Shown here piece by piece: positions 29,409-42,945 of a stretch of 44,491 nt of DNA. Below the pieces are notes generated by a model. The model searched no databases and was not told the DNA's origin. It saw only the letters and a list, made by a program, of their open reading frames with translations. The first letter of the stretch is position 1, and each line of letters opens with the position of its first letter. This DNA is from a virus. The translations under genes and the position numbers were made by a program. Location: the IMG/VR virus record IMGVR_UViG_3300025010_000107, positions 1 through 44,491 of that record. One strand, written 5' to 3'.

Positions 29409-29885
29409 GTGATAGACAGAAAAGAACTCGAAGAAATCTTGGCTCAGCATAAACTGTGGATGCAAAGTAATGGTGGTAGCCGGGCCGACCTGCGCCGGGC
29501 CGACCTGCGCCGGGCCGACCTGCGCTGGGCCGACCTGCGCCGGGCCGACCTGCGCTGGGCCGACCTGAGCGGGGCCGACCTGCGCTGGGCCGACCTGAGC
29601 GGGGCCGACCTGCGCTGGGCCGACCTGACCGATGCCGACCTGCGCGGGGCCGACCTGAGCCGGGCCGACCTGAGCGGGGCCGACCTGATTGTCATGCAGC
29701 TAAATCAATATCAGGTGTTTGTACAAAAAGAATTTACGCGCATCGGCTGCGAATACCACAAAAACGAGGAATGGCAGAAATGGGGGCCTACCGACGTAAA
29801 ACATATGGCGCACGATGCCGAAGCATTTTGGACGCCGTACAAGCCTGTCGTATGCGCGGCTATCGCGGCTTTGGCGCAAAAATAA
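29409..29885 (+). CDS. Pentapeptide repeat protein
   Basis: A 158-residue protein starting with GTG, with AAGGAGG 8 bases upstream. An N-terminal helix ([13 protein letters not shown]-like) precedes 14 uninterrupted pentapeptide repeats of the form (R/W/G)ADL(R/S) at residues 25-94, which would form a right-handed quadrilateral beta-helix. The remaining 64 residues are a non-repeat domain ([20 protein letters not shown]). Some pentapeptide proteins mimic DNA and bind gyrase, but most phage members have no known role. The repeats are almost identical at DNA level, suggesting recent expansion. Confidence 0.9.
29481..29690 (+). repeat. 14 x 15-bp tandem repeat
   Basis: Fourteen 15-base units based on CGGGCCGACCTGCGC encode the pentapeptide repeats. 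A 30-base higher-order unit alternates TGG/GGG-starting repeats. The units keep the reading frame, so copy number can change without breaking the gene. Confidence 0.95.
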
Positions 29886-37334: not shown

Positions 37335-37538
37335 ATGAATTTTTGCGGCACCTGTCACCACCACAGCTTCCTCGGCATCGAGAACTGCTGCAAAGCCCAT
37401 CTCAAAGACGGCAAGCCGGTGATCATCCCGAGGGCCAAGTGGGACGCGAAAAAGGAAGACGGGGGCATGGTGTGCTCTTGTGGGAAGTGGGTGGATTGGA
37501 TGGGCCATGATAAGAAGGAGGAGAAGTGCCAGGACTAA
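37335..37538 (+). CDS. 67-residue Cys-rich protein
   Basis: Begins MNFCGTCHHHSFLGIENCCK and later has CSCGKW, so two Cys pairs could hold zinc. AGGAGATAAG precedes the ATG. It overlaps the helicase-methyltransferase gene by 13 bases. Function unknown. Confidence 0.6.
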   Translation: MNFCGTCHHHSFLGIENCCKAHLKDGKPVIIPRAKWDAKKEDGGMVCSCGKWVDWMGHDKKEEKCQD

Positions 37539-40042
37539 TTGAACGATACCGGCAGTTCGTCCGCGACAAGATAAAACTCGATCATCGCATGGGTTTCGAG
37601 GTCGCGCCGGAAGAAATAAACCAGATACTAAAGCCGCATCAGTGCGATGCTGTAAGATGGGCGCTGCGACTCGGAAGGGCCGCGCTATTCGAACGTTTTG
37701 GCCTGGGCAAGACTTTCCAGCAGCTTGAAATCTTGCGTATCATCCAGGGGCGCGAAGGTGGCCGGCAACTCGAGATTTGTCCGCTGGGCGTGCGCCATGA
37801 GTTTATGGTGGACGCGGCCAAACTCGGCATTGAGATTAAGTTCGTCCGCTTTTCTCATGAGGTCGGCGGCGACGGAATTTACATCACAAACTATGAGTCG
37901 GTGCGCGATGGCCGGCTTGATATAAACCTGTTCAACGCGGTTTCCCTGGACGAAGCATCATGTCTTCGCTCTTACGGTTCGCTTACTTTCCAGACCTTTT
38001 TAACCTTATTCAGATCGATCAAATACCGCTTTGTGGCGACCGCTACGCCGAGCCCGAACCGATACAAGGAGTTGATCCACTATGCCGGGTTCCTGGGGAT
38101 CATGGACACCGGGCAAGCCTTGACGCGGTTCTTCAGCCGAGACAGCACGAAAGCAAACCAACTCACGCTCTATCCGCACAAGGAAAAAGAGTTTTGGCTT
38201 TGGATTTCATCCTGGGCGCTCTTTCTGCAGCGGCCGTCTGACCTGGGGTATTCCGATGAGGGCTACGACCTGCCGCCGCTTAAAATCTTTTACCACGAAG
38301 TCGCCATAACCGATCCCGAACCGGCCTATGACCGCGATGGACAGATGCAGATTTGTGGCGATGCAAGTATGTCGCTTAAGGCGGCCAGTAAAGAGAAGCG
38401 GGAAAGCATCCAGGAGCGGATCGACAAGATGGTCGATATCCTGATGGACGACCCAGAAAGCCATTACATCATATGGCACGACCAAGAAGCAGAGCGCCAA
38501 GCGATCAAAAAGGCCGTGCCGGTTGCCGTCGAGGTCTATGGTTCGCAGGACCTGGAAGTGCGCGAAGGTCGGATAGCCGGGTTTTCCGATGGCAAGTTCA
38601 AGTATCTGGCGACCAAGCCGGTATTGAGCGGGTCCGGTTGCAACTTCCAGCGGCATTGTCACAAGTCGATATTCCTTGGCATCGGTTTTAAGTTCAACGA
38701 CTTCATTCAGGCTATTCACCGAATCTACCGCTTCCTACAGGCGCATGAATGCGAAATCCATATCATCTACGCCGAAACCGAGCGCGGTATTCTCGAAATC
38801 CTAAAACAAAAATGGAAACAACACGACATCATGGTGGAGAAAATGAGCGAAATCATAAAGAAATACGGACTATCGCACAAGCAAATGGAAGAGGAATTGC
38901 GCCGGTCAATCGGAGTTGAGCGCGTCGAGGTGACCGGCAAGCGCTTTGTGGCGGTGCTGAATGATTCCGTCGAAGAGTGCGCCATCATGGAAGAAAACAG
39001 CGTCGGGCTTATCCATACCTCAATCCCGTTCGCGAATCATTACGAGTACACGCCGAGTTTTAACGACTTCGGCCACACCTCTGGCAATGCTCATTTTTGG
39101 GAGCAGATGGACTTTTTGACGCCAAATCTGTTCCGCATCTTAAAACCGGGGCGCATCGCGGCGATCCACGTCAAGGACCGAATCAACTTCGGCAATGTGA
39201 CCGGGCTTGGTTTCCCGACGTGCGACAACATGCTGGAAGAAACATCGATGCACTTCCAAAAGCACGGCTTTAAAAAGATGGGGATCATTACCATCGTCAC
39301 CGATGTCGTGCGCGAGAATAACCAAACCTATCGCCTTGGCTGGACCGAGCAGTGCAAGGACGGATCGAAGATGGGTGTTGGGTGTCCCGAGTATGTGGTG
39401 CTCCTACGCAAGCCGCAGAGCGATTTAACGCGGGGATATGCCGACGACCCGGTGACCAAAAACAAGCAAGAGTACACCAGGGCCCGGTGGCAGACCGACG
39501 CTCACGCATTTTGGCGATCATCCGGCAACCGCTTTTTGTCGGCCGAAGAACTGGTCAGCTACGGCCCTGATCGCCTTGCAACGCTGTTCACGCAAAGCAC
39601 GCTCGAATCAATTTACAGCCACGAAACCCACGTCAAGATCGGAGAAGGCCTTGAATTAAAGGGCGCGCTCCCGGCCAAATTCATGGCCATCGCCCCGGGC
39701 TCCTGGGACACGCAAGTATGGCACGACGTGAACCGGATGCTTTCGTTTAACGGTTCGCAGGCCCGCCGCAAGCTGACGCTCCATATCTGCCCTCTCCAGT
39801 TTGACATAGTTGACCGCATCGTTCGCCGCTACTCCAACGAGGGCGACCTTGTTTTTGACCCCTTCGGTGGCCTTGGCACGGTGCCGGCGCGCGCCATTAA
39901 GCTCGGGCGCTTGGGCCGGTGCTGCGAATTGAATCCGGAGAGTTTCCGAGACTCCATCGCCTACCTGAAGGGCGCGGAGATTGAAGTTGAATCACCAACG
40001 CTTTTTGACATGGAGGATTTGAAGCAATGCGCGAACGGATGA
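37526..40042 (+). CDS. Helicase-DNA methyltransferase fusion
   Basis: An 838-residue protein starting with GTG, with AAGGAGGAG just upstream. Residues 1-460 form a superfamily 2 (SNF2-like) helicase: GLGKT at 59-63 (Walker A), DEAS at 142-145 (Walker B), TATPSPN at 172-178, and a C-terminal lobe with FNDFIQAIHRIYRFLQAHEC. Residues about 485-838 form a beta-class DNA amino-methyltransferase: motif IV reads TSIPF at about 498-502 where SPP(Y/F) is usual, and motif I, DPFGGLGTVPARAI, is near 778. The enzyme may modify phage DNA against host restriction or act in replication. Confidence 0.85.
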   Translation: MPGLIERYRQFVRDKIKLDHRMGFEVAPEEINQILKPHQCDAVRWALRLGRAALFERFGLGKTFQQLEILRIIQGREGGRQLEICPLGVRHEFMVDAAKLGIEIKFVRFSHEVGGDGIYITNYESVRDGRLDINLFNAVSLDEASCLRSYGSLTFQTFLTLFRSIKYRFVATATPSPNRYKELIHYAGFLGIMDTGQALTRFFSRDSTKANQLTLYPHKEKEFWLWISSWALFLQRPSDLGYSDEGYDLPPLKIFYHEVAITDPEPAYDRDGQMQICGDASMSLKAASKEKRESIQERIDKMVDILMDDPESHYIIWHDQEAERQAIKKAVPVAVEVYGSQDLEVREGRIAGFSDGKFKYLATKPVLSGSGCNFQRHCHKSIFLGIGFKFNDFIQAIHRIYRFLQAHECEIHIIYAETERGILEILKQKWKQHDIMVEKMSEIIKKYGLSHKQMEEELRRSIGVERVEVTGKRFVAVLNDSVEECAIMEENSVGLIHTSIPFANHYEYTPSFNDFGHTSGNAHFWEQMDFLTPNLFRILKPGRIAAIHVKDRINFGNVTGLGFPTCDNMLEETSMHFQKHGFKKMGIITIVTDVVRENNQTYRLGWTEQCKDGSKMGVGCPEYVVLLRKPQSDLTRGYADDPVTKNKQEYTRARWQTDAHAFWRSSGNRFLSAEELVSYGPDRLATLFTQSTLESIYSHETHVKIGEGLELKGALPAKFMAIAPGSWDTQVWHDVNRMLSFNGSQARRKLTLHICPLQFDIVDRIVRRYSNEGDLVFDPFGGLGTVPARAIKLGRLGRCCELNPESFRDSIAYLKGAEIEVESPTLFDMEDLKQCANG

Positions 40043-40843: not shown

Positions 40844-42190
40844 ATGCAGCCACAAAACCGAATCCAGCCGCACTCAACCGAGATAGAGCAAGAGGTTTTA
40901 TCCGCTTGCCTGCAAGGTGAATCAACTTCAGTTGTCGGCATCTTATCGCCTTCCGATTTTTACACGACAAGTCATCAAAAGATCTACCAAGCCATCGAAT
41001 CGCTTTCTAAACGCATGGCTCCGGTGGACGTTCTGAGCGTCGTGGATGTTCTGAGATCAATCAATGAACTTGATGCTTGTGGTGGGGCCTCATATATCTC
41101 CAGCGTCATGAACAACGTGCCGATGGCCATCAATCTTGACCACTATTGCAAGGTTCTGAAGGACAAATCGGCAAAGCGCCGCATGATCCAGCGATGCGCC
41201 GAGCTCGCCATTTCCTGTTATCAAGACGAGGAAATAGGAGACATTTACGAGCGGTCAAAGCAGATCGTGACCGCCGCCGACCTGCCTTCTATCGACCGCA
41301 AAAGGGCCGTCGATATTTCCAATGTCTACCCTGCTGACAAGATGCTCGAAGAATACCGGGCCTATGTATCCGGCATGAAGAACAACCGCTTTGTAACCGG
41401 AATCCATGAAATCGACAAGCGCATCCGTGGGGTGGGTGGCGGGGAAACATTGTTTATCATCGCCAGGGCCGGCGCCTACAAGACCGCTTTACTCCAAAAC
41501 CTCATGCGTAATTACGTCAACGCCTCGTCCTGGGGCGCTGTATTCTTTTCCCTTGAAATGCCGGTCCCCAACATCACCGAACGCTTTTTGCAAAACTTCG
41601 ACAGGTCCAGCGGGAAAGAGATTGAGGATTTTTATTCCCACAACCTGACCGAGTGCATCGACCCCATAGAGACAAAGTTCAAGCAGCAACTCAAACGCTT
41701 CTATGTGGTCCCTACCAAGTGCAGCCTTTCGGACATGGAAAGATATGTCCGACTCATCGAAGATCACCACAAGGTCCATATCGGGCTTATCGGAGTGGAT
41801 TACATGGGACTCGTCAACCAAACCGGAAAATCCGAATATGACAAGGTTTCTGAGATTGCCAGGGGAAGCAAAGACCTTGCGAAATTCTTGAATATCCCGG
41901 TTGTCGTTTTGTCTCAAATCAACCGCTCTGGAGAGGATGGATCAGTAGAGGTCAACATCCAAATGGGCCGCGGGTCTGGAGCCATTGAAGAGGCCGCCGA
42001 CTTCATGCTTGGGCTCTGGAAAGAGGATGACAACCTGATCGCAAAGATCCTCAAAAACCGGAAGGGCGCACCTGGGTCAAAGTGGATTCTTGAACTTGAT
42101 TCGAGCTGCTTTTTCATCGGGCCGAACGCAATAGAATACAACCCTGTTCAACATCCCGCGAGAAGAAGAAGGGCCGATAAAGAGGGGTAA
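40844..42190 (+). CDS. dnaB: Replicative DnaB-like helicase
   Basis: A 448-residue helicase. The N-terminal DnaB domain (STEIEQEVLSACLQGE, DFYTTSHQKIYQAIESL, GGASYISSVMNNVP) recruits primase-like partners. The RecA-like C-terminal domain has a Walker A segment IIARAGAYKTALL, where canonical DnaB has GRPxxGKT, so the last Gly is replaced by Tyr. Walker B is HIGLIGVDYMGLVN, and the later VVVLSQINRSGE plus GRGSGAIEEAADFMLGLW match DnaB motifs. It unwinds the replication fork. The next gene encodes the loader/organiser. Confidence 0.92.
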   Translation: MQPQNRIQPHSTEIEQEVLSACLQGESTSVVGILSPSDFYTTSHQKIYQAIESLSKRMAPVDVLSVVDVLRSINELDACGGASYISSVMNNVPMAINLDHYCKVLKDKSAKRRMIQRCAELAISCYQDEEIGDIYERSKQIVTAADLPSIDRKRAVDISNVYPADKMLEEYRAYVSGMKNNRFVTGIHEIDKRIRGVGGGETLFIIARAGAYKTALLQNLMRNYVNASSWGAVFFSLEMPVPNITERFLQNFDRSSGKEIEDFYSHNLTECIDPIETKFKQQLKRFYVVPTKCSLSDMERYVRLIEDHHKVHIGLIGVDYMGLVNQTGKSEYDKVSEIARGSKDLAKFLNIPVVVLSQINRSGEDGSVEVNIQMGRGSGAIEEAADFMLGLWKEDDNLIAKILKNRKGAPGSKWILELDSSCFFIGPNAIEYNPVQHPARRRRADKEG

Positions 42191-42192
42191 AA

Positions 42193-42945
42193 ATGAGGTC
42201 ACGAAACATAAAGCCTGGGTTTTTCAAAAACGAGATCCTTGGGGAATGTTCACCCTTAACGCGGATATTGTTTGCCGGCATATGGTGTATGGCCGACCGC
42301 GAAGGAAGGCTTGAAGACCGGCCGAAAAGAATCAAAGTCGAAATTGTCCCTTATGACGATATCGACGTAGACGAGGCGCTGAATTGTCTCCATGAAAACG
42401 GTTTCATAATCAGGTATTCTGTACAAAATCAGAGATATATTCAAATTGCAAACTGGAAGAAGCACCAGACTCCACACATGAAAGAAGCCCCTTCTGTGAT
42501 ACCAGAATTAGTTGAGCACAAGTCAAGCACTGTGCAAGCACCGTGCGAGACTGATATTGGCACAAGTGCAGCCCATCTGATTCCTGATTCCTTGTTACTG
42601 ATTCCTGATTCCAATAAAACTACATTGTCGGGCAAGCCCGACGAGGAGGCCGGTAAGGATGAAAAAATCCCATCATCGACCATCCAAGAAATAGTCGAAT
42701 ACCTCAACGAAGCAGCAGATAAAGATTTCCGCTGGCAATCCAAGCCTACCCAAATCATGATTAAGGCCCGCTTAAAGGAAGGGTTTGAGGTCGAGGACTT
42801 CAAGCTTGTGATCGACCACAAGGTTAAAAATTGGAAACATTCCGTATCGAGTGATGGTCGGCCCATGTACGGGTTTTTGAGGCCTCAGACTTTGTTCGGG
42901 ACAAAATTCGAGGCATACCTGAACGAGATACCGATAACAAAGTGA
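42193..42945 (+). CDS. Replisome organiser protein (phage DnaD-like C-terminal)
   Basis: A 250-residue protein. The N-terminal 95 residues resemble phage replisome organisers (NIKPGFFKNEILGECSPLTR and ENGFIIRYSVQNQRYIQIAN, NWKKHQTPH). A low-complexity linker at about 110-150 follows. The C-terminal domain (IVEYLNEAADKDFRWQSKPT then MIKARLKEGFEVEDFKLVID and MYGFLRPQTLFGTKFEAYLN) matches the conserved phage C-terminal domain PF09524. Such proteins bind the origin and load DnaB. Repeats in the linker codons look like the origin itself. Confidence 0.9.
   Translation: MRSRNIKPGFFKNEILGECSPLTRILFAGIWCMADREGRLEDRPKRIKVEIVPYDDIDVDEALNCLHENGFIIRYSVQNQRYIQIANWKKHQTPHMKEAPSVIPELVEHKSSTVQAPCETDIGTSAAHLIPDSLLLIPDSNKTTLSGKPDEEAGKDEKIPSSTIQEIVEYLNEAADKDFRWQSKPTQIMIKARLKEGFEVEDFKLVIDHKVKNWKHSVSSDGRPMYGFLRPQTLFGTKFEAYLNEIPITK
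42527..42612. other. Putative replication origin repeats
   Basis: Three short dyads occur: GCACTGTGC (42527-42535), GCACCGTGC (42538-42546) and GCACAAGTGC (42560-42569), all of form GCAC-n-GTGC. They are followed by two copies of CTGATTCCTGATTCC (42577-42591 and 42598-42612), giving four TGATTCC units. These lie within the linker region of the replisome organiser gene, as in lambda, where the origin lies inside gene O. An AT-rich stretch follows at about 42612-42627. Confidence 0.65.

Follow-up and report, generated by a model that had tools for sequence, protein, structure and literature searches.

A two-part repeat array within a phage replisome organiser gene as a probable replication origin

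The stretch of viral DNA analysed here (IMG/VR record IMGVR_UViG_3300025010_000107, positions 1 to 44,491; hereafter called the window) very probably carries a phage replication origin at positions 42516-42612, nested in the linker-coding part of the phage's own initiator gene. Judged from sequence, it is best read as an intragenic origin of the lambda/pSK41 type with a signature of its own. Comparison of relatives establishes a two-part, polar DNA element which goes with the N-terminal domain of the initiator and is located inside the gene, just 3' of it, or 2-4 kb away. From these analyses we infer that replication starts at the array and that the N-terminal domain binds its repeats. Origins inside initiator genes are already known from lambda, Stx phages, SPP1 and pSK41.

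The initiator gene (Table 1) is located directly 3' of the DnaB helicase gene. Its product had been named a replisome organiser in an initial annotation made from the sequence alone, and this identity is borne out by matches of the N-terminus to phrog_16167 and phrog_12556 ('replication initiation protein') and of the C-terminus to the Pfam family Phg_2220_C (PF09524; 81.4 bits, gathering cut-off 27). The structure model comprises a winged-helix-like N-terminal domain (block-mean pLDDT mostly 91-98 over residues 11-100), a predicted disordered stretch at about residues 110-158, and a helical C-terminal domain. The disordered linker of the model coincides with the repeats, in agreement with the earlier placement of the array in the linker-coding part between two domains. 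The N-terminal domain has neither a Pfam family nor a sequence-detectable relative of solved structure. RepA_N is absent from the Pfam matches of the initiator and of family members, and Phage_rep_org_N (PF09681) stayed below the gathering score, the best of 33 family members having E = 0.18. Fold comparison of the domain gave clear matches to many viral replisome organisers and weak PDB matches to winged-helix proteins, the first being 4pt7 ('Structure of initiator', E = 0.05), which we take to be a RepA-type initiator.

Table 1. Features of the initiator gene, its putative origin and the neighbouring helicase gene in the window.
Feature	Position	Strand	Evidence
DnaB-like replicative helicase gene, likely partner	40844..42190	+	domain matches
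Replisome organiser / replication initiator gene, 250 aa, holds the array	42193..42945	+	phrog_16167, 12556, 17247; Pfam Phg_2220_C
N-terminal winged-helix-like domain, residues 1-105, putatively iteron-binding	42193..42507	+	model, fold matches, A1 profile
Iteron slot 1, 11 bp, GCACAAGTCAA	42516..42526	+	register and weight matrix
Iteron slot 2, 11 bp, GCACTGTGCAA, palindromic GCACTGTGC	42527..42537	+	register, Tandem Repeats Finder
Iteron slot 3, 11 bp, GCACCGTGCGA, palindromic GCACCGTGC	42538..42548	+	register, Tandem Repeats Finder
Slot 4, 11 bp, GACTGATATTG, degenerate	42549..42559	+	register
Iteron slot 5, 11 bp, GCACAAGTGCA	42560..42570	+	register
7-bp box GCCCATC, iteron-heptad joint; family consensus about GYCCKGC	42571..42577	+	
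Heptads TGATTCC TGATTCC TTGTTAC TGATTCC TGATTCC; putative opening / one-strand recognition tract	42578..42612	+	
C-terminal domain Phg_2220_C, residues 167-244, putatively helicase-recruiting	42691..42924	+	E = 4.9e-23, model

The array forms a single register of five contiguous 11-bp slots (42516-42570), the 7-bp box and five 7-bp slots. Three dyads and four TGATTCC units had been reported before, and all of them were found where they had been placed (GCACtGTGC at 42527-42535, GCACcGTGC at 42538-42546 and GCACaaGTGC at 42560-42569; TGATTCC starting at 42578, 42585, 42599 and 42606), but the start of the array has to be moved from 42527 to 42516, 11 bases upstream. The dyads are parts of the 11-bp slots, the fourth of which is less palindromic in the family consensus too, and the four TGATTCC units fall strictly into a 7-nt register whose five slots include TTGTTAC as the third. 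Tandem Repeats Finder detected an 11-bp pair at 42524-42546 and a 7-bp array at 42577-42612 with 5.1 copies.

For a scan of both strands of the window, a position weight matrix was built with homologues alone as the source. Its score was 83.2 at 42578; no other position of the 44.5 kb exceeded -8.0 on either strand, and shuffled windows stayed at or below -9.3. With an iteron-only matrix, the array reached 40.8, compared with 14.7 for the best match elsewhere and at most 14.4 in shuffles; an out-of-register match to the same array, one 11-bp slot off, scored 23.4. Taken singly, TGATTCC heptads and sequences close to GCACNNGTGC are no rarity in the window; it is the ordered array which is unique within it. 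The heptads show 40-43% GC and 67-70% pyrimidine (versus about 41% pyrimidine upstream) and represent the least stable stretch of the region, the dip being small (-1.29 versus about -1.4 kcal/mol per step). A check of GC skew along the contig, as proposed in the initial annotation, gave no clear switch at the array and was uninformative.

Relatives were gathered with a profile of the N-terminal domain alone (A1), in which the repeats were not used, and the scan yielded at least 577 of them. Two or more TGATTCC units are present in the linker of 51 of 59 viral genes and 53 of 71 genes from bacterial genomes (distinct, full-length), in a sample which may be tilted by the origin of most A1 members from repeat-bearing loci. 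A two-unit TGATTCC array is absent in 23 of 96 non-redundant relatives; several relatives without the array carry the one-base variants TGACTCC, TGAATCC or TGATACC. At the loci of genes found with A1, no multi-copy array was seen apart from that of the linker. A scan of IMG/VR for TGATTCCTGATTCC revealed at least 75 arrays located 0-600 nt 3' of the N-domain on the same strand. Genomic carriers include isolates of Pseudomonadota and Bacillota as well as MAGs labelled Holophagaceae, Dehalococcoidia and Vampirovibrionales, labels which are subject to binning caution. The family consensus reads GCACCAGACAA GCACCGTGCAA GCACAGTGCAA GAACCAGACAA GCACAGTACTA GTCCTGC TGATTCC CTTAACC TGATTCC TGATTCC, and the register of the window is identical. 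Co-variation between iterons and residues of the N-terminal domain gave a weak signal, confounded by phylogeny, with column 64 on top and column 63 in addition, both near a predicted helix (59-68). Six loci (L168, L172, L175, L187, L202, L283) have a long linker in which the heptads start about 290-340 nt past the N-terminal domain. By eye, the extra part resembles an HNH nuclease domain (CNYCGSTHDLEIDHI in L168, for example) and may represent an insertion of the homing type beside the putative origin.

Three perfect heptads produce a stop in every frame. Runs of TGATTCC inside the gene are therefore limited to two units, with the third slot replaced, sometimes by a single base (GGATTCC), and the altered third heptad of the window has the same reason; outside the gene, runs consist of 3-9 perfect units. 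At two loci (L325, L332), a perfect array with three or five units begins shortly after the end of the N-domain gene. Intergenic arrays are found at a distance of 2-4 kb from the N-domain gene, beside an immunity repressor gene and in either orientation to the N-domain gene. They are perfect, comprise mostly 5-9 units, and usually follow an 11-bp register of the same kind and GCCCGGC. In 23 of 24 full-length genes beside 21-mer arrays, a heptad of their own is absent. The intergenic array of L080 shows DNA-level homology to the coding linker of the Pseudomonas phages Aurca01 and psageB2; thus, the same DNA occurs both as coding and as non-coding sequence. TGATTCC arrays of at least three units were also seen at six loci (L316, L293, L306, L329, L290, L317) with no detectable N-domain gene and no GCCCGGC box, and these are either unrelated minisatellites or a further class. 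An element acting at the mRNA level is ruled out by arrays in both orientations and at untranslated positions.

The intergenic copies adjoin the immunity repressor gene, and plasmid iterons also serve copy control. The initiator, or a regulator of the phage, could therefore bind the array to a different end: as a means of autoregulation, as operator or partition site, or as a replication-limiting sink (incompatibility-type iterons). We regard such a role as unlikely, since the array is mostly found deep inside the gene and not at a promoter, occurs singly at each locus, accompanies the initiator domain at the place of lambda O, and combines two repeat classes of fixed polarity, as an origin would.

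The C-terminal domains vary widely across the family while the N-terminal domain, iterons and heptads stay together, so that N-terminal domain and DNA element behave as one module. Such very different domains behind the same N-domain and array would also be expected of a recombination boundary for the swapping of C-terminal domains, and lambdoid phages are known to carry conserved boundary sequences. As the function of the array this is highly improbable, because arrays are also kept away from domain boundaries, 3' of the gene or between genes, and because a boundary leaves the iterons and the fixed register unexplained; domain swapping may be a side effect.

Sequence evidence strongly supports that the repeats are selected as DNA and not as peptide. 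The peptide LIPDS occurs 96 times in 96 non-redundant genes in seven spellings; 76 of the 96 use CTGATTCCTGATTCC, where 0.2 would be expected from the genes' own codon usage. In contrast, control peptides from the conserved N-terminal domain of the same genes show dozens of spellings (RNIKP, 62 in 84 occurrences), and shared ancestry is thereby ruled out as the cause of the codon uniformity. An 11-bp period was measured 5' of the heptads (0.482 versus 0.356 under synonymous-codon shuffling, z = 20.6), together with periods of 22 bp (z = 18.8) and 33 bp (z = 12.2). Neither 11 nor 7 is divisible by three, and one-base variant heptads alter the peptide (LNPES, LTPDS) yet keep the repeat. Codon uniformity, the 11-bp period and the non-coding arrays thus give strong support to the earlier suggestion that the repetitive linker is a by-product of the DNA. 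Selection on the protein could also be considered, with LIPDS as a motif that functions in the linker and the repeat in the DNA as a consequence of the peptide or of replication slippage; the peptide is frequent among family members, and steps of 21 bp preserve the reading frame. This reading has a negligible probability in view of the above findings, the stops in perfect non-coding arrays and the predicted disorder of the linker.

The intragenic origin proposed here has a close counterpart in lambda. In lambda and Stx phages, the initiator gene has an iteron origin at its middle, between the parts for DNA binding and partner binding (PMC7466680). The relative place of the array had been likened to that of the lambda origin, and the coordinates are similar (nt 324-420 of the initiator gene and nt 349-433 of O, comprising the four lambda iterons). 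Both show the same order of iterons followed by a second element, but the lambda iterons measure 18 bp instead of 11 bp, and ori-lambda contains a plain AT-rich tract where the window phage has TGATTCC heptads with a small dip in stability. The gene order in lambda is cII, O with the iterons, P and ren, and that in coliphage HK639 is CI-like, repressor, CII-like, gp53, gp54, P-like and Ren-like. The family member in HK639 is gp54 (L336:2495-3358, annotated as hypothetical), which occupies the lambda O slot beside the P-like and ren-like genes and shares 57% identity with the C-terminal tail of O over 28 positions of its own tail. Sequence comparison of the N-terminal domain with lambda O gave no direct match; the two share a match to the N-terminal part of phrog_5810. 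In phage F10, the family gene is located 5' of DnaC-like and DnaB-like genes.

Similar arrangements are known from other replicons. In Rep of pSK41, the N-terminal domain binds Rep boxes central in the rep gene, the origin encodes the linker, and the C-terminal domain is DnaD-like (PMC5703833). The window family resembles this type in having an origin-encoded linker between an origin-binding N-terminal domain, as proposed here, and a C-terminal domain; it differs in its phage setting with an own DnaB, in its repeats, and in having no RepA_N sequence match. SPP1 has oriL within gene 38 and an intergenic oriR, each with direct repeats and an opening tract (PMC6316719). Its gp38 is likewise described as a phage replisome organiser with an in-gene origin. 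SPP1 carries both origins in one genome, whereas in the window family the array is either inside or outside the gene and the heptad array would serve as the opening tract. In the unwinding region of Bacillus subtilis oriC, DnaD recognises paired 5'-TnnT-3' on one strand (PMC10201434). The TGATTCC junctions contain TGAT and TCCT, and TnnT is present at each heptad junction of the window array. The resemblance is loose, and oriC of B. subtilis is unwound by DnaA, not by DnaD. Within the open-licence literature searched, no published description of the signature, its breadth or its placement inside and outside the gene was found, nor any relevant paper containing the repeat sequence.

For the mechanism, we propose that winged-helix N-domain dimers bind the 11-bp iterons of the GCAC-N-GTGC type, about one per helical turn. 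The 11-bp spacing would place roughly palindromic sites on one face of the helix and would suit a row of such dimers, which may assemble an O-some-like complex. This complex would open the adjoining heptad array. Off helix phase, pyrimidine-rich on one strand and slightly less stable, the heptads seem suited to opening and one-strand recognition, and the 7-nt repeats are probably read on one strand. The C-terminal domain would then deliver the DnaB encoded by the phage to the opened strand, a step for which relatives may employ P-like or DnaC-like loaders, and the LIPDSLLLIPDS peptide would be a tolerated by-product in the disordered linker. More tentatively, and with somewhat less than even probability in our estimate, the TGATTCC array may represent a new type of origin element: a strand-specific recognition and unwinding tract of 7-nt period with a role like that of the DnaA-trio, common to phages of different bacterial phyla with diverged iterons and helicase-loading domains, travelling with the N-terminal domain as one replicon module and able to leave the gene.

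The array would allow origins to be read from sequence in a very common group of temperate phages, for which they appear not to have been mapped. The occurrence of the same element inside, just after and far from genes is a natural experiment which separates DNA function from coding. In addition, the fixed register of 11-bp iterons and 7-nt array suggests a specific opening mechanism that is testable in coliphage HK639.

Plasmid matches were considered as evidence of autonomous replication and rejected. The circular 39,448-bp record L341 (NZ_CP081786.1), which was submitted as a plasmid of E. coli, is a P22-like prophage genome by gene content, in which the initiator family gene is located beside a CII-family gene and a gene for an ATP-binding protein. 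Elsewhere in the window, a 15-bp unit is repeated about 14 times in a 158-aa ORF (29409-29885) and encodes repeats of the A-D-L-R-x type, which are pentapeptide-repeat-like, and an 838-aa ORF (37526-40042) fuses a SNF2-type helicase part with an N6/N4 DNA methyltransferase part.
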